Below are positions 5,467-33,333 of a stretch of DNA of 64,000 nt, one piece after another (position 1 is the stretch's first letter; every line of letters begins with the position of its first letter). The position numbers and the translations under genes are program-made. Below the pieces are notes generated by a model. That model had not been told where the DNA came from, did not search any database, and was given only the letters and a program-made list of their open reading frames with translations. The stretch is from Desulfofarcimen acetoxidans DSM 771 (lineage in GTDB: Bacteria; Bacillota; Desulfotomaculia; Desulfotomaculales; Desulfofarciminaceae): contig NC_013216.1 of assembly GCF_000024205.1 (NCBI RefSeq), positions 3,844,001 through 3,908,000 of the forward strand, in the 5' to 3' direction.

Positions 5467-5468
5467 TA

Positions 5469-7606: not shown

Positions 7607-7624
7607 TAATACACCTCCAACCAT

Positions 7625-7698
7625 AATGTAAGCATATTTTTATTTTTAATAAGCATACGCATAATGTAAGCATCTGAAAAATATACATGTGCTTACAT
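7625..7698. promoter_or_regulatory. Operator repeats between divergent zinc-finger/integrase and XRE genes
   Basis: AATGTAAGCAT occurs at 7625-7635 and 7663-7673, and the inverse ATGTGCTTACAT at 7687-7698. Three copies in a divergent promoter region, next to an XRE gene, fit operator half-sites for that repressor. Confidence 0.6.
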
Positions 7699-7747
7699 AT
7701 AGTCTATAATTAAGTTAGTCAAAAGTCAATAAGGAGTGAAATGTAAA

Positions 7748-8215: not shown

Positions 8216-8267
8216 ATACAAAAGCCCGGTAGCGGGCCGGGCAAGCATGGGAATAAGGTGACATGAT

Positions 8268-9281
8268 ATGTTAAAACCAATCTTAGAATATATGCCTGAT
8301 GGCAGATTAGACGAAAGGCTTATCCGTGGTGCTGCATCTGGTATGAGTGAATCAGTTCCCAGTGACGGTGGCTTTCTCATTCAGCAAGATTTCACTTCTG
8401 AGCTATTAAAAAGGACATATGAAACCGGTATCATTGCAAGCCGGTGCCGTAAACTTCCAATTAGCACAAACGCTAACGGCATGAAAATAAATGCAATTGA
8501 TGAAAACAGTCGGGCCACTGGTTCCCGCTTGGGTGGTATTAGGGCTTACTGGGCCGCTGAAGCTGAAACTGTGGCAGCATCTAAGCCTAAATTCAGGCAG
8601 ATGGAGCTTAACTTACAAAAGCTTATTGGTTTGTGTTATGCAACGGATGAGCTTTTAGCAGATCAAGCCACTCTTGAATCAGTATTAATGGATGGTTTTG
8701 CTGAAGAATTTGGATTCCTTGTTGACGATGCTGTAATCCGGGGTACTGGTGTAGGAATGCCTCTGGGGATCTTAAATTCAAATGCAGTTGTCACTGTTCC
8801 AAAGGAAAATGCTCAGGCGGCCAGGAGTCTTACAGCAGAGAACATTATAAATATGTGGGCAAGGTTATGGGCTCGTTCTCAACCTAATGCAGTTTGGTTA
8901 ATTAACCAAGATATAATCCCGGAATTATATCAACTTAAGATCCCTATTGGTACTGCTGGACAACTTCTTTATATGCCGGCAAATGGTTTAAGTGAAATGC
9001 CTTATGGCACCTTATTTGGTCGGCCGGTTATCCCTGTTGAGTATTGCGAAACATTAGGTACAAAAGGGGATATTATACTGGCGGATTTTGGGCAGTACGT
9101 TATTGCTGATAAAGGTGGGGTTACCTCCGCTGTTAGTATTCATGTGCGCTTCATTTACGATGAGCAGTGCTTTAGATTCACATACCGTGTTTCAGGTCAA
9201 AGTTTCTGGAATGCACCTCTAAGCCCATACCGTGGGACTAATACCATAAGTCCGTTTGTAGTATTAGAAACCCGCGTTTAA
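8268..9281 (+). CDS. HK97-type major capsid protein, N-terminally truncated
   Basis: 337 residues. From residue ~25 it matches the mature HK97 gp5 fold: SVPSDGGFLIQQDFTSELLKRTYETGIIASRC, KFRQMELNLQKLIGLCYATDELLAD, MPLGILNSNAVVTV, FGRPVIPVEYCETLG, IILADFGQYVIADKGG. The N-terminal delta (scaffold) domain and the protease and portal genes normally just upstream are missing; the first ~20 residues come from unrelated DNA directly after the excisionase gene. This is a deletion product, probably not capable of shell assembly. A GCCCGG...CCGGGC hairpin (8224-8244) precedes it. Confidence 0.85.
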   Translation: MLKPILEYMPDGRLDERLIRGAASGMSESVPSDGGFLIQQDFTSELLKRTYETGIIASRCRKLPISTNANGMKINAIDENSRATGSRLGGIRAYWAAEAETVAASKPKFRQMELNLQKLIGLCYATDELLADQATLESVLMDGFAEEFGFLVDDAVIRGTGVGMPLGILNSNAVVTVPKENAQAARSLTAENIINMWARLWARSQPNAVWLINQDIIPELYQLKIPIGTAGQLLYMPANGLSEMPYGTLFGRPVIPVEYCETLGTKGDIILADFGQYVIADKGGVTSAVSIHVRFIYDEQCFRFTYRVSGQSFWNAPLSPYRGTNTISPFVVLETRV

Positions 9282-15457: not shown

Positions 15458-16684
15458 CTATCCCCTGTCCGACCTGTAAAGCTGGTTCTTTGAAAGTAAG
15501 GAAAAAACCAGCCTTACAAACTTCCTAGCTGTAAGAACCTGAGCTCGTTTATGGGCATGTTTTTTTGATTCTTGAAATTTTTTTTGATAGTAAGCTCGGT
15601 ACTCGTCATTATGTCTCCTCAAACTGTCCGCAGCTTCTATCAGATAATACCTGAGATACCGGTTTCCAGCCCTATTCAGGGGTTTATCTTCACCGTCAAA
15701 TTCGCCGGATTGATTGCTATTCCAGGTGATACCTGAAAATTTAGCTAACTGGGACTGATCTTCGAACTTGTTAATATCCCCAATTTCAGAGATAATGCCG
15801 GCGGAAAACACTGGCCCAATTCCCTTGATTGACATCAATGGATTCGAGAGCTTGGCCATATCCCTGGCAATCACACTGTCCAATTTGCGGATGGTTTGCT
15901 CAAAAAAGCGGATATTATTCATACTGGTTTCAAGAATCAGATTAACCGAATCCGTGAGCTTCGGACTCATCCGGTAGGATTCACGGCAAATTCGTTTTAG
16001 CTCAGTAGCCAATGTTTCAGGGTTAGAAAATTGCTTATTTCCTTTATCCACAAGCAATTGAACCAAGTCTTCAAGTGGTGTATTAATAATTTCTTCCGGG
16101 CCAAAAAAATCGGTAATAATAGACATGCTGGTGGCTCCAAAGATATCACTGAATACATCACCATAATTACTAAATTTCATAAACAACATAGTTAAAAAAT
16201 AACTTTTTTCTCGCACAAGTGAACCCACCAGGTGAAACCTGTAACGGGTCAGTCGCTGTAGCGGAAGATACATCTCATCAACCTCGTAAGGTTTAGGTAA
16301 TCTGCCGTGTCTTAGTTTTTCAGCTATGATATAAGCGTCATATGCATCGTTCTTGCCCTTTGGAGGATAAGACTTCTTGAAGTTCTTGATACTTCTGGCA
16401 TTGAGTTGGTAAACTGTAGGCCTGTATGGCTTTAATTCTTCGGTGATTAGTAAATAATTCATCAAGTGAAAGTGGTATAAAGAAGTAGCTTCCATTCCAA
16501 AAACAACATGATCAAAGCTATCTTTAATCGATAACTCTTTAGTTTTAGATGCCAAACTCTCGGCACCTGAAATGGAGTTATCGAAAACTAACTTTTTCAA
16601 CAAAATCGTTCCGTCTAATTTCATAAAGCAAGCCACATTCTTATTCTTACCAATATCAATGCCAACATGCAAGGATATTGTCAT
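15458..16684 (-). CDS. IS110-family transposase (RuvC-like DEDD recombinase)
   Basis: 408 residues, full length. N-terminal DEDD domain: HVGIDIGKNKN (first Asp), GMEATSLYH (Glu), KNDAYDAYIIAE (two Asp). C-terminal transposase_20 domain: LMSIKGIGPVFSAGIISEIGDINKFEDQSQLAKFSGI, with the serine of NRAGNRYLRYYLIEAA-type region nearby. IS110 enzymes recombine a circular intermediate into a target guided by a bridge RNA. The 5' untranslated end of this gene is long and highly structured, as required by that model. Appears intact. Confidence 0.93.
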   Translation of the reverse strand: MTISLHVGIDIGKNKNVACFMKLDGTILLKKLVFDNSISGAESLASKTKELSIKDSFDHVVFGMEATSLYHFHLMNYLLITEELKPYRPTVYQLNARSIKNFKKSYPPKGKNDAYDAYIIAEKLRHGRLPKPYEVDEMYLPLQRLTRYRFHLVGSLVREKSYFLTMLFMKFSNYGDVFSDIFGATSMSIITDFFGPEEIINTPLEDLVQLLVDKGNKQFSNPETLATELKRICRESYRMSPKLTDSVNLILETSMNNIRFFEQTIRKLDSVIARDMAKLSNPLMSIKGIGPVFSAGIISEIGDINKFEDQSQLAKFSGITWNSNQSGEFDGEDKPLNRAGNRYLRYYLIEAADSLRRHNDEYRAYYQKKFQESKKHAHKRAQVLTARKFVRLVFSLLSKNQLYRSDRG

Positions 16685-18402: not shown

Positions 18403-18442
18403 TTACTATTATATTTAGTAACATTTTGTGAGGGATAAATTT

Positions 18443-18844
18443 ATGAATATAGGTAATAGAATTAGAACACAAAGAATATTAAAGGATTTTACACAAAAAC
18501 AATTAGCTGAACTTGTTAATGTTTCACCGCAAGTTATTTCTAATTGGGAGCGTGGATATACTCCAGTAATACCTCATGATGATGTTGTGAGATTAGCAGA
18601 TGCACTTGGTATCTCTCCTGCCTATCTTTTGTGTGAAACTGACATCAGTGAAACACCAGAACAGCAAATAGAATCTGCCATCAATGATGATGCCGATCTA
18701 TTGGAATTTTGGCATGAATTAAAAAAGAGAGATGATTTGCAACTTCTTTTTAAGCAAGTTAAACCGTTATCACCTAAATCAATAAAGAAGATAATTAAAG
18801 TAATCAAGGTTATTGAAGATGAGGAAGCTATGGAAGATTTATAA
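18443..18844 (+). CDS. XRE-family repressor
   Basis: 133 residues: HTH (GNRIRTQRILKDFTQKQLAELVNVSPQVISNWERGYTPVIPHDDVVRLADALGISPAYLL) and a helical tail of about 65 residues (EFWHELKKRDDLQLLFKQVKPLSPKSIKKIIKVIKVIEDEE), the shape of many ImmA-controlled repressors. ATG at 18443 chosen, with GAGGG upstream; a GTG at 18428 is possible. The vapBC-like pair and an ImmA gene follow on the same strand, so the repressor-protease pair is linked. Confidence 0.83.
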   Translation: MNIGNRIRTQRILKDFTQKQLAELVNVSPQVISNWERGYTPVIPHDDVVRLADALGISPAYLLCETDISETPEQQIESAINDDADLLEFWHELKKRDDLQLLFKQVKPLSPKSIKKIIKVIKVIEDEEAMEDL

Positions 18845-18866
18845 TAAAAGAAAGGAGGATAAGAAG

Positions 18867-19025
18867 ATGATAAAGCAGCAGACATATAAGCTTACCAAAA
18901 GAAAACCAAGAACCATCATTTTTTCGATAATAGATAAGCATAAAGTTAAAAAAGAACTGACTGCTTTCCGCTCTCTAATTGGTATGTGGGAAAATAAAGA
19001 TACCAGCTTCTTTGACAAGAAATGA
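18867..19025 (+). CDS. Putative antitoxin of the PIN-domain pair
   Basis: 52 basic residues with AAAGGAGG 8 nt before the ATG: IKQQTYKLTKRKPRTIIFSIIDKHKVKKELTAFRSLIGMWENKDTSFFDKK. Its end overlaps the toxin start (ATGA). A short protein directly coupled to a PIN-domain gene is most likely its antitoxin. The tail (SLIGMWENKDTSFFDKK) resembles the toxin-binding tail of VapB proteins, but no DNA-binding fold is obvious. Confidence 0.6.
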   Translation: MIKQQTYKLTKRKPRTIIFSIIDKHKVKKELTAFRSLIGMWENKDTSFFDKK

Positions 19026-19492
19026 GCGGAATTCTTTTAGATACGGTGATAATAATTGATTTTTTGCGGGCATTCCGTAGCTCAAGACCAAAAAGTAAAG
19101 AACATAAATATCATTCAGAAAAAGCAATAGAGTTAATTGAGGATTTAATAGAAAAAAGGATACCACGATACATATCATGCCACACAATAAAAGAGCTTCT
19201 ACAATATCCATATATATCTGAGCAAGAAGAAGCCAGAATTGATACTATGCTACCACAGTTTATTAAAATTTTACCGACTACCATGAAGGTTGCTAAGGTA
19301 GCTGGATACTTTTCCCGACAGTCAGCAGAATACAGAGAACATCATATAGAAGACTGCTATATAGCAGCTGCTGCTGTTACATATAACCTATCACTATACA
19401 CCAGAAATCCCGATGACTATAAGTATGTTGAACATGCAAATCTAAAAGTAACAGTACCCTACCAATACCAACCGTCAGTCAGTAGAGATTAA
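19022..19492 (+). CDS. VapC-like PIN-domain ribonuclease toxin
   Basis: 156 residues. PIN signature: first Asp in GILLDTVIIIDFLR, Glu in TIKELLQ, and the closing acidic group in HHIEDCYIAAAAVTYNLSLYTRNPDDYKYV. VapC toxins cut tRNA or rRNA in a Mg-dependent way. It overlaps the small upstream gene by 4 nt. The ~25-residue insert after the first strand (SSRPKSKEHKYHSEKAIE) is longer than usual but falls in a loop. Confidence 0.85.
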   Translation: MSGILLDTVIIIDFLRAFRSSRPKSKEHKYHSEKAIELIEDLIEKRIPRYISCHTIKELLQYPYISEQEEARIDTMLPQFIKILPTTMKVAKVAGYFSRQSAEYREHHIEDCYIAAAAVTYNLSLYTRNPDDYKYVEHANLKVTVPYQYQPSVSRD

Positions 19493-19525
19493 AGTAATCC
19501 TGCATACCTAACAGGAAGTGAAGAT

Positions 19526-19879
19526 TTGAATAAATATAAAAATAAATATGCAGTTATACGTGCTATGTTAAGCGGTACCATGGACCAGGATGAAGTTATG
19601 CTGGCTTATGGTATAATACCGAAGTTAGCTGAACTGGCGCATGATGTAGCAGCTTTTGTTTACCGCTCCAGAAAAGACAGATTTTACATAATAGTTAATC
19701 AATATCTTAGCCAAGAAACAAGAAAAGCTGTATTTTTTCATGAGCTCTGTCACATTATTAGGGACATGCCCGCCGCTGGCTATATTCTTGGCTTAAATAG
19801 GCAGAGAAGTCCAATTGAAAAGAGGGCTGATTTATTTATAAAAGAAGTAGCAGCAGCATTTAACACCCATAACGGGTGA
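19526..19879 (+). CDS. ImmA/IrrE-like metallopeptidase
   Basis: 117 residues from a TTG start (AGGAAG upstream). HELCH in VFFHELCHIIRDMP and the E of IEKRADLFIKEVAAAF give the M78 zinc site. It differs strongly from the other ImmA genes in the window. It lies in the same transcript direction as the XRE repressor at 18443, and its natural target could be that repressor. The C-terminus ends just after the zinc-binding helix, so the domain is minimal. Confidence 0.8.
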   Translation: MNKYKNKYAVIRAMLSGTMDQDEVMLAYGIIPKLAELAHDVAAFVYRSRKDRFYIIVNQYLSQETRKAVFFHELCHIIRDMPAAGYILGLNRQRSPIEKRADLFIKEVAAAFNTHNG

Positions 19880-19990
19880 TTTTGTGTTTTAGGGGTGATT
19901 CGACAAAATATTATTAAGTTATGAACTTAGTTTTATAGTGAAAGCAAAAGGAGGGTTGGAGTTAGAATTCATAAAAGGAGGGTTTGTATT

Positions 19991-20641
19991 TTGAAACTAA
20001 AAAGAGGCATAGTCTTCTTTCTCATGTTGGGGTTACTGTTAATGCTGCCAGTTCCAGCCATGGCTACCCCAAAAGTTATATTGGATGGCAATCAGCTATC
20101 ATTTGATGTATCACCTACAATTGAAAACGACAGAACTTTGGTACCACTTAGAACAATATTTGAAGCCCTTGGCGCAGATGTTAATTGGAATGGGACAACC
20201 CAAACCGTGACCGCAACTAAGGATAATGTTGAGGTAAAACTGCAAATTGGGGTAAAAACTGCTTATAAGAATGGCTCTCCTGTTACCCTTGACGTACCGG
20301 CTAAGATTATGAATGATAGGACAGTAGTACCGCTACGCTTTGTAAGTGAGGCTTTTGGATCTAACGTAGCTTGGGACGCATCAACGCAAACTATAACTAT
20401 TACTTCTATAACAGCAGTACCTGCAGTTACTGGACAAATTAAAGTTACTCCTCAGTCACAATCACAACAAGAACTATCTGTCACTCAAGGCCAATTTGTA
20501 GGCAGTACCGAATCAAACAAATACCATTCTCCTGATTGCAGATATGTCGAAAAAATTGCTCCCGAAAATAAGATTTGGTTTAAAGATGCCGTCGATGCCG
20601 AGGCACATGAATATGTACCTTGTGGAGTATGTAAACCATAA
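19991..20641 (+). CDS. Secreted copper-amine-oxidase N-terminal domain protein
   Basis: 216 residues from a TTG start with AAAGGAGGG upstream. Signal peptide: MKLKRGIVFFLMLGLLLMLPVPAMA. Two beta-rich repeats follow (ENDRTLVPLRTIFEALGADVNWN, NDRTVVPLRFVSEAFGSNVAWD), the Cu_amine_oxidN1 domain that is very common on the surface of this clostridial group. The C-terminal 45 residues (NKYHSPDCRYV...YVPCGVCKP) look like the small Cys-containing metal-binding domain found in Ada and secreted nucleases. Role: probably cell-wall associated; ligand unknown. Confidence 0.8.
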   Translation: MKLKRGIVFFLMLGLLLMLPVPAMATPKVILDGNQLSFDVSPTIENDRTLVPLRTIFEALGADVNWNGTTQTVTATKDNVEVKLQIGVKTAYKNGSPVTLDVPAKIMNDRTVVPLRFVSEAFGSNVAWDASTQTITITSITAVPAVTGQIKVTPQSQSQQELSVTQGQFVGSTESNKYHSPDCRYVEKIAPENKIWFKDAVDAEAHEYVPCGVCKP

Positions 20642-20652
20642 TATAACAATTA

Positions 20653-20675
20653 GCCCGGCCTTGTGGCCGAGTTTG
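20653..20675 (+). terminator. Terminator after the secreted protein
   Basis: CGGCCTTGTGGCCG stem, weakly followed by AGTTTGATTT. Confidence 0.5.
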
Positions 20676-20681
20676 ATTTAA

Positions 20682-20697
20682 TATTCCACGTGGAATA
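20682..20697. repeat. 16-bp palindrome resembling parS
   Basis: TATTCCACGTGGAATA, perfect. It differs from the ParB site TGTTTCACGTGAAACA at four symmetric positions. No parA/parB gene is in the window. A half-match (TATTCCACGTGATATA) is at 4020. Confidence 0.4.
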
Positions 20698-21823
20698 ATC
20701 CCGAATCACTGCCGGCAAGGTCGGGTGGACACAAACAGTATGCATAAAAGAGGTGATAGTTACGGGAGGCGTAAACGGCGGCTACCTAAGAAAGAAGGGT
20801 AAAGACAAGTGGGAAATAGTTGTGGAAGCAGGGAAAGATTCGGCTACCGGCATAAGAAAACGGATCAGTAAAACATTCAACGGATCGGAAAAAGCGGCAA
20901 AAAACGAGCTCGATCGTATAAAAAACGAAGTTAAACAGGCAACATATATTCCACCAACCAAAATGAACCTGCAGCAGTACCTTGAAAAGTGGATGGGGTT
21001 CCAGAAGGACAAGCTGGCCCCCCGGACATATCAGCGGTATCAACAAATAATTGACCTTAGGATTATACCGGCACTAGGCAAGATTATCCTGGAAGAATTA
21101 AAACCTATGCAGCTCCAAGAGTTTTATGCCAAGCTTAAAAAGTCTCCTCGTCTTGACGGTAAAGAAGGCACTCTATCGTTGGACACAATTATGTACCACC
21201 ATAGAATCCTAAGAGTTGCGCTTAATCAGGCAGTAAAATGGCAGATGATCGGCAGAAACCCGGCAGACGCTGTTGACACTCCAAAACAAAAAAGAAATCA
21301 GTTTACCGCCCTAGATGGGAATCAAACAAAGAGACTATTGGAATTGGCAGAAGGATCGCAACACTATCTGGCTTTGCTCTTAGCTCTAAGTACCGGTCTT
21401 AGAAGAGGTGAGATATACGGCCTACGATGGAAGGATATTGACTTCCACCACAAAACATTAACAGTTAATCAGGCAGTAAAGTATTTACCTGGTCAACCTC
21501 TTATTTTTGGCCCACCAAAGAACGATTTCAGTCGGAGAACTATTCCGCTGCCTCAGAAGGTATTTGATGCTTTTCAAGAGCGCAAAATAGCGCAGGATAA
21601 AATGAAAAAGAGGCTAGAATATGCCTATAGCGACAATGACCTTATTTTATGCCAAGAGGACGGATCTCCTACCCACCCTGACACTATTTCATCATGGTTT
21701 CAGAAGTTTATTAATAAACATTCTGGCTCAAATAAAAAAGAGTCTACTGACTGCATTACTCAGCAAGCAAACTCCAATAAAACAGTAAATTTACCAAAAA
21801 TAAGATTTCATGATCTAAGTTAT

Positions 21824-21849
21824 CCGTACATAAATAAAATCCGAACCTT
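21824..21849 (+). repeat. RIT left terminal inverted repeat
   Basis: CCGTACATAAATAAAATCC followed by GAACCTT, 26 bp, the exact inverse of 25226-25251. A second inverse-oriented partial copy (AAAGGTTTGGATTTTATT) lies at about 21889-21906, making the end palindromic. Confidence 0.9.
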
Positions 21850-21939
21850 CTATAAAATAGCTTAATAATAAGCCCTTTCCTTAATAGAAAGGTTTGGATT
21901 TTATTTTTATGCTGTATACTCCGAGCAGGAGGTGTACAG

Positions 21940-23178
21940 ATGAATACACAAAACTTAAGGGATAATTATCCCAAACTAATCGACTACATGGAAAGAGCTG
22001 GTTATTGCGCCACATATATAATAAAAGTGCGCCGTGAGATAGACTACGTTCTTTCTGGAGCGGATTCAAAGGACTGGGCGTCGTACACAGATATTTATCT
22101 GGAGCACGTGAATAAATCAAGTTCCCGGCATTATCTGCGTGGCAAACTGAATTGTCTTGGAATTATTGAGCGATTTGACAATCGCGGCCAGTACCCCGAC
22201 GGAAGGCGGCGACAGCAGATTGTGAAACGTGGTCTGTATCACTTGTTGTTGCCGGAGTTCAAAGCTGTGGTTGACTGTTACCGAGCATCTGAAAGCAAGA
22301 GAAACAAGAAGGCAACCACAATCATAGGCGAAGCGAGCCACGGTGCGAGCTTTTTGTACGCTTTGCAGCAGAAAGGCATAAATACTCTTGGCGAGATTAC
22401 AGAGGCGGCTGTGTTATCCGTTTTCATAGGTGATGACGACACTTTACGCCGGAGTTGCTCATACAAAAAGGACATCGTCGCAATTCTCAAAGCCTGCATA
22501 AGGGAGAATCCTGATTGCCCAGAGTTCACAAAAATATTGGCTTACCTGCCTGAATTACGGGAGCGCCGCAAGAACATCCAGTATTTGAAGCCGGATGAAA
22601 CACATCAGATCAAACAAGCTCTCGTAAATGGGGATTCGGGGCTTTCGCTCAGAGACAGAGCGGTTGGTTCACTGGTGCTTTATACCGGACTGCGCTGCTG
22701 TGACATTGCCGGACTGACGGTCAATGATATTGATTGGGAGAAAGAGCTAATCTGTATCAGACAGCAGAAGACTGGCGCTCTCCTCGAGTTGCCGCTTTCC
22801 GTAATCGTAGGCAATGCCGTCTATGACTATCTTGTGTCCGAACGCCCGGAGACCGAGTGCGAATTCCTATTTATCTCAGAAAATCGACCCTACGGACGTT
22901 TGTTGAGCGGAAGTATCGGAAACATTTCCAACAAGATAATGAAAGCCGCAAACATCAGACAAAGTGCCGGCGACCGTAGGGGATTTCATATCTTTCGCCA
23001 CCGAGTGGCAACAGAGCTTCTAAGCAGCGGTGTCCCTCAGCCTGTTATCAGCAGGGCACTTGGTCATACGTCACCCGATTCTCTGGAAACATATTTGAGC
23101 GCCGACTTTAAGCATCTCAAAGAGTGCGCACTCAGTATAGAACGGTTCCCAATGCCGGAGGTGTTTGCGTATGAGTGA
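21940..23178 (+). CDS. RIT tyrosine recombinase 1
   Basis: 412 residues with GCAGGAGG 9 nt upstream. N-terminal SAM-like region (NLRDNYPKLIDYMERAGYCATYIIKVRREIDYVL), a long middle part, then the catalytic domain: Arg in LYTGLRCCDIAGLTV, Lys in RQQKTGALLELPL, HxxR in FHIFRHRVATELL, Tyr in GHTSPDSLETYLSAD. All catalytic residues present. Its end overlaps the next gene by 14 nt. In RIT elements the three recombinases are always in this fixed order; the individual tasks are not established. Confidence 0.9.
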   Translation: MNTQNLRDNYPKLIDYMERAGYCATYIIKVRREIDYVLSGADSKDWASYTDIYLEHVNKSSSRHYLRGKLNCLGIIERFDNRGQYPDGRRRQQIVKRGLYHLLLPEFKAVVDCYRASESKRNKKATTIIGEASHGASFLYALQQKGINTLGEITEAAVLSVFIGDDDTLRRSCSYKKDIVAILKACIRENPDCPEFTKILAYLPELRERRKNIQYLKPDETHQIKQALVNGDSGLSLRDRAVGSLVLYTGLRCCDIAGLTVNDIDWEKELICIRQQKTGALLELPLSVIVGNAVYDYLVSERPETECEFLFISENRPYGRLLSGSIGNISNKIMKAANIRQSAGDRRGFHIFRHRVATELLSSGVPQPVISRALGHTSPDSLETYLSADFKHLKECALSIERFPMPEVFAYE

Positions 23179-24136
23179 GTTTATATCCTCCCTTGCACCG
23201 CTCATGCGGTCATTTGTTTTCTATCGGAAGGTTTCTGGACGTTGGAATGAAGCCTCTTACGAAGTTAATCTGAGCCTGTTCGACAAGTATTGTGATAAGA
23301 ATTTTTCTAATGCTTCCGAATTGTCGCAGGACATGGTGGATTTATGGTGCGCCCAACGCAAAACGGAAACAAACAATTCATGCCGTTCCAGAATATATCC
23401 TGTGGTCAGCTTCATACGTTATCTGCGCAAACGCGGAATGACAACCGTTGCGGAACCCGATATCCCCCGAAAAGAGCCGAGAGTCTATATCCCACATGCG
23501 TTTACTGAAGCGGAACTTCAGAACTTCTTTGCGGCTTGTGACTCTATATCCGCCGCTCCGCCCACAGAAGAACAGTTGTCGCGCCGGATAACCGTCCCCG
23601 TATTCTTCCGGTTGCTGTACTCAAGTGGAATCCGAACGAATGAGGCACGGGCTCTGATGCGTGAAGACATTGACCTTGACAGCGGCGTTGTGAATATCCG
23701 CTACTCCAAGGGGCATACGCAGCATTATGTTGTGCTGCATGATTCTATGCTTTTACTGATGCGACAGTACGATGGTGTCATTGATAAAATGTACCCTGAA
23801 CGGGTCTACTTCTTTCCTGCCAGAAAAAGAAACGGCGGCTTCCACAGAGCATCCTGGGTACAGCGTAATTTCAATAAAATGTGGCGTCAGCATAACTGTG
23901 GTAATGTCGTCCCATACGAATTCCGGCATAATTATGCCGTTGAGAACATCAATGGCTGGACGGATGTAGGGTTTGAATTTAACGCGAAACTGCTTTATCT
24001 CAGCAAGAGCATGGGACATAGCGTTTTGGAAAGCACGAAATACTACTATTCGCTTGTTCCGGGACTGACCGACATTATTGAGGCTCAAACCGACGAAGGC
24101 GCAGTCATCCCAGAGGTAGACTATGAGAGCTACTAA
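23165..24136 (+). CDS. RIT tyrosine recombinase 2
   Basis: 323 residues, overlapping both neighbours by 14 nt. Catalytic domain: Arg in LLYSSGIRTNEARALM, Lys in IRYSKGHTQHYVVL, Arg in PYEFRHNYAV, Tyr in GHSVLESTKYYYSLV. In the second Arg motif the usual His of HxxR is replaced by Tyr (YEFR), which I would expect to weaken, not abolish, catalysis; it may be a family trait. The N-terminal domain (SEFISSLAPLMRSFVFYRKVSGRWNEASYEVNLSLFDKYC) is of the core-binding type. Confidence 0.88.
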   Translation: MRMSEFISSLAPLMRSFVFYRKVSGRWNEASYEVNLSLFDKYCDKNFSNASELSQDMVDLWCAQRKTETNNSCRSRIYPVVSFIRYLRKRGMTTVAEPDIPRKEPRVYIPHAFTEAELQNFFAACDSISAAPPTEEQLSRRITVPVFFRLLYSSGIRTNEARALMREDIDLDSGVVNIRYSKGHTQHYVVLHDSMLLLMRQYDGVIDKMYPERVYFFPARKRNGGFHRASWVQRNFNKMWRQHNCGNVVPYEFRHNYAVENINGWTDVGFEFNAKLLYLSKSMGHSVLESTKYYYSLVPGLTDIIEAQTDEGAVIPEVDYESY

Positions 24137-25169
24137 CGAGTCCGTTGTACTGGCGAGGCACATTAATGCTTTTCTTAACGAATATGTTCCATCACAAAAA
24201 ACCAAGAGCGCCCACACATTGAAAGCGTATAGTGATGCGCTCAGTTTGTATATCGGTTTTCTTGAAACGGAAAAAAGCATAAACTCAAGCAATCTCAATG
24301 GAAATTGCTTTTGCGCTGCGAACATTGAGGATTGGCTCGTTTGGCTGATGGAAAGTCGTTCGTGCAGTCCTGAAACCTGCAACAACCGGTTGGCTTCACT
24401 TAGGGCTTTTCTCAAGTACCTTAGCAGCAGGGACGTTTCGTACCTTCACTTATCTCAATCGGCGTCACAGATAGAGCGAAGAAAGGTATACACTAAAAAA
24501 GTGACTGGCATGAGTAAAAAAGCAGTAAGTGCTTTGCTCGAAGCCCCTGATTCGTCCACGAAGGCTGGTCGCAGGGATATTGCTTTGATGGTCGTCATGT
24601 ACAGCACCGCCGCTAGGATAGACGAAATATTGTCTATGAGAATTGAACAATTGCACCTGGATACGGATAAACCAAACATCACGGTCATTGGTAAGAGGGG
24701 CAAAATCCGAACGCTGTATTTGTTGCCAAAGGCCACGGCTCACCTCAGGGCGTATATTAAAGATTCTCACGGGGCCACACCCAATCCGTCATCTTTCGTG
24801 TTCTACTCAAGGAACACAGGTCCCGCCGGAAAGATGAGCCAGAAAGCCGTTAACAAGCAACTTCGCAAGCACGCACAAGCAGCGAGGTCAGTATGCGGTG
24901 AAGTCCCTGCCGAGATTCACGCTCATCAGCTCCGCCACGCCAAATCCTCTCACTGGCTGGAGGACGGCATGAACATTGTCCAAATATCCTTCCTTCTGGG
25001 GCATGCCCAGCTTCAAACGACGATGGTTTATTTAGACATAACCACCGAGCAGGAAGCAAAAGCTTTGGCAACGCTCGAAGATGAAAACGATAAATCATTA
25101 ACCAAGAAGTGGCGCAATGCAAATGGGAGTTTGTCCATGTTATGCGGTGTCCGGGCGATGAAACGGTAA
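24123..25169 (+). CDS. RIT tyrosine recombinase 3
   Basis: 348 residues, XerC/XerD-like. SAM-like core-binding domain (HINAFLNEYVPSQKTKSAHTLKAYSDALSLYIGFLE), then Arg in YSTAARIDEILSMRI, Lys in GKRGKIRTLYLLP, HxxR in HAHQLRHAKSSHWL, Tyr in GHAQLQTTMVYLDITT. Complete. The last gene of the trio; 57 nt after its stop the right-end boxes begin. The Xer-like architecture suggests it and gene 1 may do strand exchange with gene 2 as partner; that is inference. Confidence 0.9.
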   Translation: MRATNESVVLARHINAFLNEYVPSQKTKSAHTLKAYSDALSLYIGFLETEKSINSSNLNGNCFCAANIEDWLVWLMESRSCSPETCNNRLASLRAFLKYLSSRDVSYLHLSQSASQIERRKVYTKKVTGMSKKAVSALLEAPDSSTKAGRRDIALMVVMYSTAARIDEILSMRIEQLHLDTDKPNITVIGKRGKIRTLYLLPKATAHLRAYIKDSHGATPNPSSFVFYSRNTGPAGKMSQKAVNKQLRKHAQAARSVCGEVPAEIHAHQLRHAKSSHWLEDGMNIVQISFLLGHAQLQTTMVYLDITTEQEAKALATLEDENDKSLTKKWRNANGSLSMLCGVRAMKR

Positions 25170-25175
25170 AATATT

Positions 25176-25280
25176 ATCCGAACCTTTCTCTTGGAGATTT
25201 CTTTAAAAATTGGATTCCATGGAAAAAGGTTCGGATTTTATTTATGTACGGGTAACTGAAGAAATCCGAACGTTCGGATT
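25176..25280 (-). repeat. RIT right end: terminal inverted repeat and palindromes
   Basis: 26-bp repeat at 25226-25251 (inverse of 21824-21849); an inverse partial copy ATCCGAACCTTT at 25176-25187; and a perfect 18-bp palindrome AATCCGAACGTTCGGATT at 25263-25280, directly before the TAAG junction. The last has no equal at the left end, so the ends are not symmetrical. Confidence 0.85.
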
Positions 25281-25485
25281 TTTTAAGACATACCCACGCC
25301 ACTTTATTGCTTTTACAGGACGTTCACCCTAAGGTAGTGTCTGAAAGATTAGGTCATGCCAGTATAACAATAACCCTGGATTTATACAGCCACATTCTGC
25401 CTTCTCTGCAGAAAGGAGCTACTGTGAAGATAGAAGAGTTATTATTTGATTAATATTAATCATAGCAGTTCATTTAATGGTTTGG

Positions 25486-25516
25486 GCAGAGAATGGCAGA
25501 AATAATGGCAGAAATA
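25486..25516. repeat. ATGGCAGAAAT direct repeats near att B
   Basis: AATGGCAGAAAT occurs twice in tandem (about 25492-25503 and 25504-25515) between the end of the split integrase and the att core; probable arm-type sites of that integrase. Confidence 0.45.
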
Positions 25517-25518
25517 CA

Positions 25519-25552
25519 AAAGGCCTGCATGTATCGAAACCATGCAGGCCTT
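25519..25552 (+). terminator. Terminator of the element B integrase
   Basis: AAGGCCTGCATG pairs with CATGCAGGCCTT, 12 bp, followed by GATTTACC; ends 8 nt before att B. Confidence 0.75.
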
Positions 25553-25560
25553 GATTTACC

Positions 25561-25605
25561 TGGAGCTGATGGAGGGAATTGAACCCTCGACCTACGCATT
25601 ACGAG
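25561..25605 (-). repeat. Attachment site copy B (45-bp tRNA-Thr 3' half)
   Basis: Identical over 45 bp to copies A and C. Only the tRNA 3' half is present. Marks the border between elements B and C. Confidence 0.92.
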
Positions 25606-25986
25606 GACTTAGAATTAATATTTTGTGTGTTATCACGTATTTTACCAACCATAAAAGCCTTGAAGACACTGATTTTTCATAATTAAATATCTTAGTATGT
25701 CTTTTATATTTTAATACATTTTAATTTGTCCGTTAGCAAAATGTTTGCAAGTTAACAACCCCCTATACCAGATAAGATTATTTATTGCATTGATTTATAT
25801 AAAACGAAATTCCCCCTACCCCCTACTTGATATGAATTCCTATAAATACTGGCTTTAAATCTATGTGCATTGGTAGAAGGTATAGACTAATGAATAGACA
25901 TAGGCGTATGGTTAAATCGCTTCTATTAGTTTATAATTTAATAAGAAAAATATTTTGGGTTTATGAAGGGATTTTATTTTGTACTA
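25606..25986. other. Left end of element C, non-coding
   Basis: AT-rich, no gene. GTTAGCAAAATGTTTGCAA at 25732-25750 matches GTTAGCAAAATGTTAGCAA at 55474-55492 at the other end of element C, in the same orientation; these are probable integrase arm sites. The IS630 copy begins at 25987. Confidence 0.6.
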
Positions 25987-26018
25987 TATAGAACCGAAAT
26001 AATAAATATCGTTATAAA

Positions 26019-26522
26019 TTAAACGCAAAGTCTCTTTTTCACATCTTCCGAACAGCATTTGATTTCCTCTAAAAACGAGTCAACAGATTTTTGAATTTCT
26101 GAAGCATTTTTATGAAAGCGATTATAAATAGCTGTATTTTTTAACCATTTCCATAACTCTTCTATGCAATTCAGATTGGGTGAGTAGGGTGGAAGAAATT
26201 TCAGAAACAGATGATCCTTATGCTCGTCTAAAAAGTCTTTAAGTAATTTTGCATGATGAACTCTTGCATTATCAAGAACAATGTAAATTTTAGAAATGTC
26301 ATCTTTTAAAAAATGTGATACCAATTTTTTAAGAAAATCTTTGAATTTTTCTGCATTGATTTTGTCATAATTTACACAAAAAACTTTACCCGTATAGTAG
26401 TTTAAAGCACCGTATAATGTAACTTTTGCATGGTGTCCATAGGTCTTAATCTTTTTTTGCTCACCTTTTGGGAACCATGCTCGTTGTAAACCTTGATAGT
26501 CCCTAATGTGAGATGCATCCAC
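26019..26522 (-). CDS. IS630 transposase, catalytic part (orfB)
   Basis: 167 residues that carry the DDE domain: first Asp in YVDASHIRDYQG, second Asp in IYIVLDNARVHHAK, Glu in PYSPNLNCIEELWKWLK. This frame must be joined to orfA (26542-27069): near 26550 a run of seven A in orfA's end allows +1 ribosomal or -1 transcriptional slippage into this frame, as is usual in the family. The ATG at 26522 lies after the first catalytic Asp region begins, so separate translation would give a partial enzyme. Confidence 0.88.
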   Translation of the reverse strand: MDASHIRDYQGLQRAWFPKGEQKKIKTYGHHAKVTLYGALNYYTGKVFCVNYDKINAEKFKDFLKKLVSHFLKDDISKIYIVLDNARVHHAKLLKDFLDEHKDHLFLKFLPPYSPNLNCIEELWKWLKNTAIYNRFHKNASEIQKSVDSFLEEIKCCSEDVKKRLCV

Positions 26523-26541
26523 ATATAGGAGTATTTCACAT

Positions 26542-27069
26542 TCAGTGAGATTTTTTTAACTCTTCCAGCTCATCTTGAAAAGCTTTTTGTTTTTCCGGAT
26601 CAGCTTTGGCTAATACATAAGTGGGACGATTATAACGAAAATCCATCTTAAGAAGCATGCGCCAAACACCATCTGATGTATATTTAACGCCGTATGTATC
26701 ATGAATGTAAGCAGCGAGGGTTTTACAATTCCAAGTAGTATGGGTACTAAAACCAACCTCTGATGGTGATTGTTTCAGTACCTCTTTGACCTCTTCTTTT
26801 TGTTCATTGGTTAGCCTTGGCGGTCTTCCCGGTTTTTTTGATACATGAAGCAGTTTTTCAACTCCACCTTCATTAAAGTAAGCAACGTATTTTCTTATGG
26901 TTTGTTCACTTATATCAAGATATTCGGCAATCTGCTTTGCTTGTCTCCCTTTCATGACAAGAATAACAGCTTGAACTCTGCATCTTAGTTTATATGGTGT
27001 TTCTCTTTTTATCTTATTCAAATCCTCAATGGTTAAATTTTGTGGATTGTTTAAATGCAATTTCCTCAT
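26542..27069 (-). CDS. IS630 transposase, DNA-binding part (orfA)
   Basis: 175 residues of helix-turn-helix type: YKLRCRVQAVILVMKGRQAKQIAEYLDISEQTIRKYVAYFNEGGVEKLL (HTH_29-like) and a second winged part (GRPPRLTNEQKEEV...). ATG at 27069 follows GGGGAGGGG. It ends ELEELKKSH at the TTAAAAAAAT slippage site. It differs from copy 2 by only two residues (Q/K and V/I), so transposition was recent. Confidence 0.88.
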   Translation of the reverse strand: MRKLHLNNPQNLTIEDLNKIKRETPYKLRCRVQAVILVMKGRQAKQIAEYLDISEQTIRKYVAYFNEGGVEKLLHVSKKPGRPPRLTNEQKEEVKEVLKQSPSEVGFSTHTTWNCKTLAAYIHDTYGVKYTSDGVWRMLLKMDFRYNRPTYVLAKADPEKQKAFQDELEELKKSH

Positions 27070-27231
27070 GGTAATAATACCCCTCCCCACACTTGATTCT
27101 ATTTTACAGGATAGGAGTAAAAATTACCATTACTTTATTAATCGTTTCTATATAGTAACTGATGAAATGCCGTGAATAGGCAGTTATCTGATTCGACAAG
27201 AACAGTAATATGAGTATGGGAGAAATAAATC

Positions 27232-28029
27232 ATGATTAATAAATATCTTCTTTATATAGATATATTAGGTTTTTCTAATTTAGTTAAAAATGACTATACT
27301 AAAATTGATAAAATTTATAAGTTAATTAACTCTTTAAATGTTCATAAGCATTATGCGTTTAATACAATTGTTTTTTCAGATACAATTTTAGTCTACAATT
27401 CAAAAGAGCCACGGTCAGAAGAGGAACATAAATACTTAGTAATGTATGCTGTAGAGTTTGCTCAGGATTTATGGTTTCGAACCGTTGGGAAAGAAATCTT
27501 TTTTAGAGGCATATTGCGTTACGGCCCATTTAATCACAATAAACTGAGCCATATTGATGCTTTTTACGGGGATGCTCTAATAGAGTCATACTTAAAAGAA
27601 AAAGATTTAAATTGTTGTGGGCTATTTATTGATAATAGCTGTATTAAGTATAATGATATATTTCCAACACTAAAATACGATAAAAATTTAAACTATGTAT
27701 TTTATCTTCAAAGTTTAGAACGTTTAATGTTAAATACAGATGGAAATTTATCTACGGATCCTTTTTTTCTGAATTCTACTTACGATTATTGGAGTATACT
27801 CTGGGATCTTAGGTATCTGAGAGATATCAATAATTTAATGACGAATCATCCCGAACCCAAAGTTAGGAGTAAGTATCTTATTACTTGGCATATTTACAGA
27901 GCAAGATATCGAAAAATATTAGACTTATTAGAACAAGCCGATTTTAACCCTCTTGTAATATGTAATGAATATGATTGGTCTGAAATGGAAGAATCTTTTT
28001 CGGAGCAAATAGAATCTTGGTATGAGTAA
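27232..28029 (+). CDS. Hypothetical protein with nucleotidyl-cyclase-like motifs
   Basis: 265 residues. The start KYLLYIDILGFSNLV and, ~35 residues later, FNTIVFSDTILVYNS resemble the two metal-binding Asp motifs of class III nucleotidyl cyclase or related folds (F-x-D-[IV]-x-G-F and G/S-D-x-x). A third conserved block is FFRGILRYGPF.....DAFYGDALIESYLKE. The C-terminal ~90 residues (YWSILWDLRYLRDINNLM...WHIYRARYRKILDLLEQ) look like a separate helical domain. Such YIDILGF proteins are usually annotated as unknown. It stands alone between an IS630 and a terminator, as cargo. Fold assignment is inference. Confidence 0.55.
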   Translation: MINKYLLYIDILGFSNLVKNDYTKIDKIYKLINSLNVHKHYAFNTIVFSDTILVYNSKEPRSEEEHKYLVMYAVEFAQDLWFRTVGKEIFFRGILRYGPFNHNKLSHIDAFYGDALIESYLKEKDLNCCGLFIDNSCIKYNDIFPTLKYDKNLNYVFYLQSLERLMLNTDGNLSTDPFFLNSTYDYWSILWDLRYLRDINNLMTNHPEPKVRSKYLITWHIYRARYRKILDLLEQADFNPLVICNEYDWSEMEESFSEQIESWYE

Positions 28030-29420: not shown

Positions 29421-31817
29421 ATGAATAATGGAAAATATGAGCTTATTCTTTCGCGTTTAGAAAATGTTCAAGTAAGTGGCAATGGATATACTGCCCGGTG
29501 CCCCGTTGAATCACATAATGATACTAAGAACAGCCTATCAATAAGAACTGGTAATGACAACAGAATTCTTTTAAAATGTCACGCCGGTTGCTCTATAGAG
29601 GATATTGTTCGAGCCCTTGGCTTAACGATGCGCGATTTGTTTCCTTTTCCTAATCATCAAAACAATGACCGTAATAACGCTTCGGGTATTACTTTGAAAG
29701 AACTGGCGACAGATAAATATATGCCAATAAATTTTCTAACTTCACTAGGAGTTTACCAATCTGGCCGGGTAGTTAAAATCCCTTATCGTCTTGAGGACGG
29801 CTCCCCTGCCCCCCGACAGCGGTTAAGAACAGCTTTAAAGGCTAAAGACGGCAGTCGGTGGGCAAAGGGCGAAGGAAGTCCAGTGCCGTATGGACTTTGG
29901 AAATTACGAGAAGCGAGAGATGCCGGACAGATTGTTCTATGTGAGGGTGAGTCAGATGCCTGGACACTCTGGTATCATGGCTTTCCTGCAATGGGTCTGC
30001 CTGGTGCAGATATGACAAAAAAACTAAAGATAGCTCATTTCCAGGATATAAGTCGGGTTTACGTGATTCGCGAACCTGATCAAGGTGGAGATACATTTGT
30101 CAATGGAATGACTAAGCAGTTCTCCGGATGGCGCAGCTGGCGGGGTGAGCTATTCGAGGTAAGGCTTAGTGAGTCAACCGGGGCGAAAGATCCCAATGAT
30201 TTACACAAACAAGACCCGGATAATTTTAAGAATGTTTTTATGGAGGTTTTAAGTGCGGCGAAGCCACTTGAAATAGTTAACCAAAATCTAAAATCAGAAG
30301 CAAAACATATGTTTGCCAATGGAAATAATTTAACCGATTTAGGTAATACCCGCCGCCTTGTTACACAGCATGGGCAAACTATTCGATACTGCCACATTTG
30401 GAAAAAGTGGCTTATATGGAACGGCAAGTTTTGGGAGATTGACAATACCGGTGCAGTAGTGCGTTTAGCCAAAAATACCGTGATGAGTATCTATGCAGAG
30501 GCATCAAAAGAATCAGATGAAGGTCTGCGAAAAGCGTTAGTGGATCACGCCAGAAAGTCTGAGGCTGCTTCTCGTATCAAAGCCATGATAACCCTGGCGG
30601 AATCCGAAGAAGGTATACCTATAAGCCCGGATCAATTAGATAACAACCGATGGTTATTAAATTGTTTAAATGGCACTGTTGATCTTAAAACCGGCAAATT
30701 GTTACCTCACAGGCGTGATGACTACATAACAAAGATTGCCCCAGTAGAATATAGGCCCGATGTGGAATGTCCTATATGGCATACTTTTCTAAATGAAATA
30801 ATGGAAGATAATCAAAATCTAGTTAGTTTTCTTCAAAGAGCTGCCGGTATGTGTTTAACGGGTGATGTTTCCGAACATGTATTATTTGTTCTTCATGGAA
30901 ATGGCCGAAATGGGAAAAGTACACTTTTAAACATTATGTTAGATATAATGAATGATTACTCAATTCAGGCACCACCCGATCTTTTAATGGCAAAGCATAA
31001 CGAACGTCACCCAACCGAACTGGCAGACCTGTTTGGAAAACGATTAGTGGTATCAATCGAAAGTGACGAGGGCCGCAGAATGGCAGAATCGCTAATTAAA
31101 CAGCTGACAGGCGGTGACAAAATTAAGGCCCGCCGCATGCGAGAGGATTTTTGGGAATTTTGGCCTAGCCATAAATTATGGCTGGCAACAAACCATAAGC
31201 CACAGGTACGAGGAACAGATACGGCAATTTGGAGTCGATTAAAACTAATCCCATTTAACGTATCTTTTGCGGGTAGAGAGAACAAACAACTACCCGCAAA
31301 ACTACTTACAGAAAAGCCGGGTATTTTTAAATGGTTGGTTGAAGGTTGTCTGGCCTGGCAACGGGAAGGACTGGGAGTACCTGACGAGGTACAGGCGGCA
31401 ACTGAAATTTACCGCACTGAACAAGATACTTTAGGAAATTTTCTTACAGAACATTGCATTACTAACCCACTAGTCAGAGTACCAGCCAGTGATATATATC
31501 GTGCCTATAAAGCCTGGTGTGAGAATAATAACGAATATGTTTTATCACAAAAGATTTTTGGCACAAGGCTATCAGAACGAGGATTCAATAAATCCCGCGG
31601 TACCAAGACCGGTGGTTATGTATGGTATGGTATTGGATTACTGAACGATCTGAACGATACTGAACGATTTTCCTATATAACAGCTTCACGAGAAAATAAA
31701 AGTGAGTTTATACGGAAAATCGAATTTAATCGTTCAGTTCCTTCAGTGGATAAGGAAAATAATGTTAATAGTAAGAATTTTGCTTGGGAAGGTGATTTAC
31801 ATAAATTACCTATTTAA
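29421..31817 (+). CDS. D5-type primase-helicase
   Basis: 798 residues. Zinc-binding start (ARCPVESH...LLKCHAGCS, about 20-55), TOPRIM-like part (IVLCEGESDAWTLW, about 173-186; VYVIREPDQGGDTF), D5_N region (LLNCLNGTVDLKTGKLLPHRRDDYITK), then an SF3-type helicase domain: Walker A GNGRNGKSTLL, Walker B LVVSIESDE, sensor LWLATNHKP, WSRLKLIPF. A winged-helix tail (ASDIYRAYKAWCENN) follows. This family starts replication of many phages and plasmids in Firmicutes. All motifs are intact. A fragment of its relative lies at 4625-4849. Confidence 0.92.
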   Translation: MNNGKYELILSRLENVQVSGNGYTARCPVESHNDTKNSLSIRTGNDNRILLKCHAGCSIEDIVRALGLTMRDLFPFPNHQNNDRNNASGITLKELATDKYMPINFLTSLGVYQSGRVVKIPYRLEDGSPAPRQRLRTALKAKDGSRWAKGEGSPVPYGLWKLREARDAGQIVLCEGESDAWTLWYHGFPAMGLPGADMTKKLKIAHFQDISRVYVIREPDQGGDTFVNGMTKQFSGWRSWRGELFEVRLSESTGAKDPNDLHKQDPDNFKNVFMEVLSAAKPLEIVNQNLKSEAKHMFANGNNLTDLGNTRRLVTQHGQTIRYCHIWKKWLIWNGKFWEIDNTGAVVRLAKNTVMSIYAEASKESDEGLRKALVDHARKSEAASRIKAMITLAESEEGIPISPDQLDNNRWLLNCLNGTVDLKTGKLLPHRRDDYITKIAPVEYRPDVECPIWHTFLNEIMEDNQNLVSFLQRAAGMCLTGDVSEHVLFVLHGNGRNGKSTLLNIMLDIMNDYSIQAPPDLLMAKHNERHPTELADLFGKRLVVSIESDEGRRMAESLIKQLTGGDKIKARRMREDFWEFWPSHKLWLATNHKPQVRGTDTAIWSRLKLIPFNVSFAGRENKQLPAKLLTEKPGIFKWLVEGCLAWQREGLGVPDEVQAATEIYRTEQDTLGNFLTEHCITNPLVRVPASDIYRAYKAWCENNNEYVLSQKIFGTRLSERGFNKSRGTKTGGYVWYGIGLLNDLNDTERFSYITASRENKSEFIRKIEFNRSVPSVDKENNVNSKNFAWEGDLHKLPI

Positions 31818-32208
31818 CGATATACTGAATCAATTAACTGACTATGGTGTTAATATAACTGTTAATGGAGGCCAAGTGCGATTACAAATGCCATGGCCTC
31901 CTGATCAGGCACCACCTGACGTAAGATTTTTGTTGCGGCAATTAAAAACACATGCATCACATATACAATCGCAACCGATATCCTTATATGCTAAGAATTT
32001 TTACGGCGGGCCTAACAGCCTCCCGGCACAAGAATGGCAAAAACTTTATCAAAAAACCGTTACTAAAATCAAGCATACCAAACAGCAGGACGAATATAGC
32101 CGGTTATTGATTGAAGCACTTTATTATAATAACTGCTACCGATTCTTAACCCACAAAAAAGGAATCAATCCATATAAGCATGTTGTAGAAAATTTAATAA
32201 TGAGTTGA
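31762..32208 (+). CDS. TubC-N-like domain protein
   Basis: 148 residues. NYLFNDILNQLTDYGVNITVNGGQVRLQMPWPPDQAPPDVRFLLRQLKTHASHI fits the pattern of the small TubC N-terminal (docking-like) domain, often seen alone in phage and plasmid replication regions. The rest is basic and helical. Start at 31762 chosen because AAGGA lies 6 nt upstream; it overlaps the primase end by 56 nt. A GTG at 31791 is also possible. Confidence 0.6.
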   Translation: MLIVRILLGKVIYINYLFNDILNQLTDYGVNITVNGGQVRLQMPWPPDQAPPDVRFLLRQLKTHASHIQSQPISLYAKNFYGGPNSLPAQEWQKLYQKTVTKIKHTKQQDEYSRLLIEALYYNNCYRFLTHKKGINPYKHVVENLIMS

Positions 32209-32242
32209 AGCAATTAACGCTAGTAATTGAGGAGCATTGAAT

Positions 32243-32569
32243 ATGAAATATATTTACCGCGAAAACCTAAAAAAAGAAGCATGGGAAGCATTACAACTCT
32301 ACAATTTAAAAGATCCACGGGATTTAAATCACGCTGTTCATTATGCTGAAACCATCCTTCGCACATGGTATTATAGAAGCCGTCAAATTGCACGGAGAGA
32401 GAAAAGAACTCATCCTGGGTTTAAGGTCTATGTAGCAGCTATTATGGCGGATTCTAAACAAAGTTTTGAACCATCTATAAGAAAAAAGTTAATTAAATCT
32501 TACGGAAAAAAACCTGGAAAAATACAACCCGGTTGTTCTGTTTGGGTAGGAGATCCCTTGAAACGCTAA
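32243..32569 (+). CDS. Hypothetical protein, 108 residues
   Basis: ATG at 32243 with GAGGAG upstream. Basic, helical (REKRTHPGFKVYVAAIMADSKQSFEPSIRKKLIKSYGKK), no recognised domain. It lies between replication and virion-like genes in one transcript. Confidence 0.55.
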   Translation: MKYIYRENLKKEAWEALQLYNLKDPRDLNHAVHYAETILRTWYYRSRQIARREKRTHPGFKVYVAAIMADSKQSFEPSIRKKLIKSYGKKPGKIQPGCSVWVGDPLKR

Positions 32570-32640
32570 TTTAAGAGGGCAAGATAATTTTTGCATTAAG
32601 ATAAGAACGAGTTAACGATAATATACAGGAGGCATATCCA

Positions 32641-32904
32641 TTGCAGAAAGTAAACTGTCCTATTTGCAGTGAACTAACAGTAAAAACCGAATTTGATTTT
32701 TGGAGATGCCCAAGCTGCCGGTGTGAGATTTGGCCGGCTGATGATATGCCCGAAAAGAAAAAGCCGGTAATAACAGACGAAGAAATTAAAGAGGTTTACA
32801 AGGAAAGTTTAAGGCAAGGTATTCGTAATGGTAGCGGAAGCGGCAATCGGCGTAATCGAAACAAGAAACATCCTACCTCTCGATACATTAACCCTTTTGC
32901 ATGA
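32641..32904 (+). CDS. Zinc-ribbon protein, 87 residues
   Basis: TTG start with CAGGAGG 8 nt upstream. Residues 1-30 form a zinc ribbon (NCPICSEL...WRCPSCRCEIW); the rest is charged, ending in a Gly/Ser/Asn/Arg-rich basic tail (NGSGSGNRRNRNKKH). Probably nucleic-acid binding. Unknown role in the element. Confidence 0.6.
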   Translation: MQKVNCPICSELTVKTEFDFWRCPSCRCEIWPADDMPEKKKPVITDEEIKEVYKESLRQGIRNGSGSGNRRNRNKKHPTSRYINPFA

Positions 32905-32940
32905 TCTCAAAAAACAAGAAAAGAAGGCAGGTGATAACCA

Positions 32941-33333
32941 ATGAAGGGGCATGGTGAAAAATTGACCCGAAAAATGGAATTAGCTGTAGCAGCTCTACTG
33001 ACAGCCCCGACGATAGGATTGGCAGCGCAAAAGGTCGGAATATCGGAGATCACTCTTTGGCGATGGCTACAGACAGAAGAATTTAAAGGTCGTTATGCGG
33101 AAGCCAAACGGCAAGCTGTTGGACAAGCTATTGCCAGGTTACAACAGTCCACTGTTAAGGCAGTGGATGCCTTGGAGGAAATAGTAAGCGATGTAGATGC
33201 CAAAGATACTGCCAGAGTTGCAGCTGCCAAAATAATCCTTGAAACGGCCCTAAGAGGGATTGAGATTGAAGACCTGGCTGCAAGGGTTGAGCTACTAGAA
33301 AAGTTAGCTAAAGATAAAGATATGGTGATGTAA
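32941..33333 (+). CDS. Small-terminase-like HTH protein
   Basis: 130 residues: KLTRKMELAVAALLTAPTIGLAAQKVGISEITLWRWLQTEEFKGRYAEAKRQAVGQAIARLQQS, an HTH of the type found in phage small terminase-like proteins (phBC6A51 group), followed by a long helical part. No large terminase gene is present in the element, so a packaging function is doubtful; it may act as a regulator or be left over from a phage ancestor. Confidence 0.65.
   Translation: MKGHGEKLTRKMELAVAALLTAPTIGLAAQKVGISEITLWRWLQTEEFKGRYAEAKRQAVGQAIARLQQSTVKAVDALEEIVSDVDAKDTARVAAAKIILETALRGIEIEDLAARVELLEKLAKDKDMVM

Follow-up and report, generated by a model that had tools for sequence, protein, structure and literature searches.

A recombinase-in-trio (RIT) element interrupts a phage-type integrase gene in the 64-kb window, that is, the whole stretch of DNA analysed here. 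The comparison with its relatives makes it very probable that this element belongs to a RIT lineage that inserts at the HxxR codons of other tyrosine-recombinase genes, moving as a circle whose junction would offer two cores for recombination.

Genes and ends of the element

The insert is 3,462 bp long (window positions 21820 to 25281). Its identification as a RIT element whose ends, resolved to the base, lie within the HxxR motif of a phage-type integrase is supported. The gene trio, the repeats and the joined integrase are all as the preliminary description of this DNA had them. The three genes lie on the forward strand and encode tyrosine recombinases: ritA (21940..23178; 412 aa, HIFRH motif), ritB (23171..24136; 321 aa, or 323 aa if the start is the TTG at 23165; box II YEFRH) and ritC (24123..25169; 348 aa, HAHQLRH motif; PF00589, E 1e-27). 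A Phage_integrase domain was found in all three products. The 14-nt overlaps first described hold for ritB/ritC, whereas the ritA/ritB overlap is 8 or 14 nt depending on the choice of start codon.

The left terminal inverted repeat (21820..21849, forward strand; TTATCCGTACATAAATAAAATCCGAACCTT) is matched by the right one (25226..25255, reverse strand) at 29/30 bases, and the perfect 26-bp repeats reported earlier are confirmed within these 30-bp repeats with their single mismatch. Three 6-nt cores accompany the ends, all given on the forward strand. TCTAAG (21814..21819) precedes the left repeat, an internal core CTGAAG (25256..25261; CTTCAG on the other strand) sets the right repeat apart from the palindrome AAATCCGAACGTTCGGATTT (25262..25281), and TTTAAG (25282..25287) follows the palindrome. 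The left and right cores match at 5/6 positions. In the single-contig genome of 4.55 Mb, the 26-mer is present nowhere but at these two ends, so that the proposed search for other copies in the same genome yielded no second element, and the boundaries had to be compared in relatives. No Rfam family matched in window 20000-28000.

The interrupted integrase and its surroundings

The 5' part of the integrase gene, up to HDLR (20753..21819, forward strand), contains the target half-site CATGA (21809..21813, forward strand; codons H-D), and its 3' part starts at the codons RHTHATLL (25288..25453, forward strand). Removal of the insert rejoins the integrase through its HxxR motif, as had been claimed. 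When the flanks are joined (20753-21819 plus 25288 onward), a 410-aa integrase runs through HDLRHT, reading ...RFHDLRHTHATLL..., and the Pfam Phage_integrase match becomes whole, going from E 1e-12 (profile 3-120) in the split gene to E 2e-24 (3-168 of 172) in the joined one. Both TCTAAG and TTTAAG preserve the HDLR reading. The preliminary description had allowed for an integrase family that naturally contains the rit genes. Each of 1,184 phage records covers at least 80% of the joined integrase, and the best of them cross the junction unbroken and with no insert; the trio is therefore not a natural component of that family.

A repressor-like HTH gene and an M78/IrrE-type peptidase gene (18428-20641) lie near the broken integrase, and a D5-type primase-helicase gene (29421-33333) lies downstream of it. 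Together with the integrase, these genes suggest a prophage or a remnant of one, which may be locked in place because its integrase is broken by the RIT. Just past the integrase gene, at about 25560-25605, the sequence looks like a tRNA 3' end and is a possible attachment site; ARAGORN found no complete tRNA there. An IS630-type transposase in two frames directly follows the RIT (26019-27090), and an IS110-type transposase is located upstream of it (15458-16684).

Relatives of the element

Relatives were sought blind to the target, with RitA alone and then with the pattern of the right end (loci are given as L numbers, genomes as G numbers). Copies with 84-88% identical RitA were found in G032 (L012), G036 (L013 and L014) and G090 (L010), and copies at 50-59% in G109 (L016), G090 (L017), G261 (L021) and G279 (L022). 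A relative at 45% is present on two Priestia plasmids (L024, L025). The right-end pattern yielded the further ends L040, L041, L045, L046 and L048; L044, a match with two mismatches, was discarded because its end structure did not fit. All complete relatives have orthologous rit trios in one order. Extending the search within the orders of G191, G221, G261 and G279 brought no additions, these orders being small.

The more distant RITs L023, L026 and L049-L051 have different ends, and a Cupriavidus locus was matched by the window RitA at 28%. In L023 (G243), a RIT at 41-42% identity, a different palindrome (GCTTATCAGTACGTACTGATAAGC) stands beside the left end, upstream of ritA; this is a further RIT lineage with an end type of its own. 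Neither RitA relatives nor right ends were found in the viral contigs. On one of them (IMGVR_UViG_3300035698_027852; L053 4430-4489), a RIT-like left end lies at the contig edge, next to a palindrome of different sequence.

The loci L012 and L013 have no palindrome and look rearranged. Past the left repeat of L012 (8176-8275, G032) stands an inverted repeat of another kind (AAATTATCTGAAGCCC); it may be the end of another insertion element that took the place of the palindrome side. The RIT right end of L041 (5851-5889, G022) is a remnant within a recombinase gene, the rest of the element having apparently been replaced by an IS3-type element.

End structure and the Priestia empty site

All 26 inverted-repeat ends begin with TTAYCC and each is preceded by a 6-nt core; the core in turn follows either target sequence or GGATTT, an arm of the palindrome, with the rearranged left end of L012 as the sole exception. 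The general form, checked by script, is B1-[l]-IR...IR-[x']-AAATCCRAANNTTYGGATTT-[r]-B2. Thus, the inverted repeat, the 6-nt core and the target recur in the relatives, which answers the concern raised earlier that other copies might have different boundaries. The internal core of the window element has its equivalent in 13 other right ends, and the palindrome lies at B2 in all 14 insertions whose B2 side is in sequence. Orientation, read from which repeat adjoins the palindrome, is plus in the window, L014, L010, L021, L024, L048 and the outer element of L017/L040, and minus in L025, L022, L016, L046 and the inner element of L017/L040.

Two plasmids of Priestia megaterium strain CDC 2008724142 carry elements that are identical over 3,436 bp and lie in opposite orientations; the genes they split share 79% identity and are hit at the same codon. 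The gene split on pPmC-142-1 is uninterrupted in ATCC 14581, where the core is ACTCAC; the two alleles show 2 mismatches in 700 bp (at 420 and 672), the junction being at 400. The interrupted copy (L025) has ACTCAC at B1 and GTTGAC both on the palindrome side and inside, and the sister plasmid has GTTGAC in all three core places. From this pattern, the target core stays by the inverted repeat and the element delivers the donor core to the other side, which is the fingerprint/footprint rule reported for SE elements (PMC10214605). By comparison, the presence of the same element on two plasmids and the uninterrupted target in another strain indicate mobility of this 45% relative. The pair also makes the palindrome part of the element, ruling out that it is target sequence or end debris. 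The palindrome first placed at 25263-25280 extends over 25262-25281 and belongs to the element, with which it travels in Priestia.

The relatives, the Priestia pair included, likewise show a crossover core of 6 nt, not 4. The TAAG described as a 4-bp overlap is the shared end of the 6-nt cores in the window, and its 4-nt length does not hold in the relatives. The empty site is that of the 45%-identical relative, and the rule is carried over from it to the window integrase allele. On this basis, TCTAAG would be native to the integrase, TTTAAG would be a footprint brought from the element's previous host, and CTTCAG would be an older footprint still.

The left and right cores are equal in 6 of the 9 insertions with both cores visible, an equality that a strict target/donor rule does not demand; core homology may be needed, or mismatches may be repaired. 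If the core of the circle had to match that of the target, left and right would normally be equal, as they are in L014, L010, L021, L024, L022 and the inner element of L017/L040, and the 5/6 match of the window would be due to later mutation. This requirement is unlikely, given that the cores of L025 differ at 3/6 positions while the empty site makes its left core native, and that those of the outer L017/L040 element differ at 2/6. We favour the target/donor rule. Taken together, the compared loci show 6-nt cores, precise insertion, a palindrome carried by the element and both orientations relative to the target; they likewise place the target core beside the inverted repeat and a donor core on the palindrome side.

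Target genes and codon

Flanks were read directly, scanned with Pfam and compared with RitA/B/C, and targets were assigned to ritB by best match. In the window element and its close relatives (RitA, wherever present, 55-88% identical), at least 10 junctions lie within a tyrosine-recombinase gene, between the second and third bases of the arginine codon of HxxR (PF00589 position about 130), and the half-site is YAYGA in every such target with its 5' half in sequence. By best match, the target is the ritB of another RIT in 6/10 of these junctions. The split (↓) is HDLR↓HT in the window phage integrase, HDFR↓HG in the ritB of L014, HDLR↓HT in that of L010, YELR↓HN in that interrupted by the inner L017/L040 element, and HDVR↓HT in the recombinase of L021. 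Five of the ten junctions in recombinase genes are one-sided, some of them at contig ends: only the 3' half is seen in L016 (R↓HSF, called a recombinase solely by best match to RitB, with no Pfam hit), L041 (R↓HSC) and L048 (R↓HSC), and only the 5' half, ritB YDF, in L012 and the L013 right end.

A sister lineage (51%; inverted repeat TTATCCAAACAAAAATAAAATCC) is inserted in DruA-DDE_5 transposase genes in at least 4 cases, each time at the same conserved arginine codon (the outer element of L017/L040, L022, L045 and L046; N/S/T-R↓FLI, PF14236 position 133/134), the DDE_5 part being observed for L040 alone and L022, L045 and L046 showing DruA or the same motif. The third lineage, the 45% relative on the Priestia plasmids (L024 and L025), interrupts two paralogous plasmid genes at HELT↓HAK. 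All three groups are cut after the second base of the codon, which is arginine in the recombinase and DruA groups and threonine in Priestia.

The chance of insertion at one given nucleotide is about 1e-5 per event, as estimated by assuming 4 Mb of genome and a few dozen recombinase genes, and coincidence of the HxxR insertions is therefore excluded. As far as the compared junctions can tell, the HxxR location is a rule in the lineage of the window element and not a single event. Fairly free insertion followed by survival, with hits in mobile-element recombinase genes being harmless, would fit the fact that every known target is a dispensable mobile-element or plasmid gene, and published RITs do interrupt radC, IS66 tnpA and a Tn6049-related transposase (PMC2864759; PMC3414803). 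Survival leaves unexplained why the same nucleotide of the same codon was hit in ten genes and why the sister lineage is found four times at one DruA-DDE_5 codon; moreover, the relatives were collected without regard to target, and the Priestia pair occupies the homologous codon of two paralogues. This explanation is very improbable and can be considered largely refuted. It is still harder to credit that one ancestral insertion in a recombinase gene was inherited and diverged, even with ritB genes as 6/10 targets, because the split genes are distant (a phage integrase, RitB 26-53% identical to the window RitB, other recombinases), their cores and neighbours differ, identical elements lie in opposite orientations on two plasmids and G090 carries the element in two different ritB genes.

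Under repeated targeting of the HxxR codon, the element itself offers a site. The target-like motif YAYGANNTNMGNCAY has a single match in the window, at 23915 in the element's own ritB, the position used for insertion in the ritB genes of relatives. Nested RITs are thus expected, and they were found.

Carried cores as a record of earlier insertions

We interpret the internal core at 25256-25261 as a putative fossil of an earlier insertion. In the recombinase-targeting group, 7/8 internal cores encode F, L or I followed by the first bases of an arginine codon; in the DruA group, 4/4 encode N or T followed by arginine. The third core base is T in 7/8 of the recombinase group vs 0/4 of the DruA group (Fisher P 0.01), a contrast that weakens to P 0.08 once cores equal to the current core are left out. 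Among the x cores unlike the current core, 8/9 end in AG or CG, as an arginine codon starts (binomial P about 5e-7, assuming uniform bases and independent cases); this ending may instead reflect an enzyme requirement.

The internal core of L014 in G036, TTTCAG, recurs at L013 as the core of a second ritB, which is physically joined there to the right repeat of the same element. An identical 6,831-bp block is present at these distant loci (L013 2867-9697; L014, reverse, 1870-8700); it runs from an IS21-like end precisely to the RIT right repeat with its internal core. The match supports an internal site that may be active, with L013 as a putatively rearranged locus. The reciprocal product that recombination between the L013 right end and the second ritB would have left was looked for in G036 and not found.

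Proposed mechanism and its implications

In the mechanism that we propose, the target site would be YAYGA-[6-nt core]-NCA, with the arginine codon split between its second and third bases. The element is laid out as IR_L - ritABC - IR_R - [core x] - 20-bp palindrome. It would leave as a circle; the joined ends, IR_R-[x']-palindrome-[y]-IR_L, would form a double inverted site with two 6-nt cores resembling two dif-like sites back to back. Folded as a 92-nt hairpin in which the two cores face each other, the predicted junction gives -39.9 kcal/mol, vs -5.7 ± 2.1 for mononucleotide shuffles. RitABC would recombine either of the two junction cores with the target. With either half usable, insertion could occur either way round, with the palindrome on the B2 side. 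The core left unused would travel along with the element, so that the two element-borne cores would record earlier hosts. The target recombinase, a prophage integrase here and frequently another RIT's ritB in relatives, would be inactivated by insertion and restored on precise excision.

A wider reading, to which we give even weight for and against, is that this RIT lineage is specialised in recombinase active-site codons, above all those of sister ritB genes, and acts as a DNA-level parasite of competing mobile elements whose own two cores record its previous hosts. If so, the two carried 6-nt cores would let donor genes be named from sequence alone. Here the sequence itself reveals the target, the core length, the role of the palindrome and where each core came from, and together these predict the circle junction and the empty site exactly. 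Near-invariant catalytic codons would be a refuge from which mutation of the host gene could not readily dislodge the element, as is the case for some inteins and homing introns. Every tyrosine recombinase, the element's own ritB included, becomes a possible landing site, which explains the nested RITs.

Comparison with known systems

A dif site consists of arms of about 10-11 bp flanking a 6-nt core. The arm/core layout of the window element is alike, but the element is mobile, has three recombinases and suggests no role with chromosome dimers. The Tn554 family has tnpA, tnpB and the non-recombinase tnpC, carries resistance genes as cargo and targets radC. It too transposes by tyrosine recombinases to a fixed site and leaves a 6-bp footprint (PMC10214605), and it differs in its third gene, which in the window element is a tyrosine recombinase.

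GInts (PMC5385486) also combine three recombinase-type genes with site-specific, 6-nt staggered cuts, and circular forms have been detected for them. They differ in an essential fourth gene (ginD), cargo, imperfect direct repeats and other targets; between the inverted repeats of the window element there is no fourth gene, and hence no full ginABCD set. The strand-biased circularizing elements (SE; PMC10214605) share several tyrosine recombinases and a 6-bp spacer between inverted motifs at the joint, and they keep the 6 bp of the target at one end with a 6-bp donor footprint at the other. This type of target fingerprint and donor footprint is present in the Priestia relative. SE carry four genes, namely intA, tfp, intB and srap, and their circle joint holds a single core, whereas the window element has three genes, all with a Phage_integrase domain, and its palindrome gives two cores.

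The closest likeness is to RITs, known from the rit element of C. metallidurans CH34 (PMC2864759) and from a survey (PMC3414803). These have three adjacent overlapping tyrosine-recombinase genes in about 3.5 kb, with gene overlaps of 4-8 nt (PMC3414803), and they interrupt genes belonging to other mobile elements; their ends, as described, vary and comprise terminal inverted repeats overlapped by a palindrome (PMC3414803; PMC2864759). The window element has the same features: a gene trio with short overlaps, a length of about 3.5 kb, repeats of 30 bp, within the ~28-34 bp of RITs, and an overlapping palindrome of 20 bp. Target specificity and empty sites of RITs were given as not tested in 2023 (PMC10214605), and no statement on HxxR targeting by RITs was found in the literature searched, which did not include the main RIT paper (Ricker 2013). 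In comparison with the published RITs, one fixed HxxR codon stands out here as the target, and the 6-nt core, the donor footprint and the carried core are resolved.
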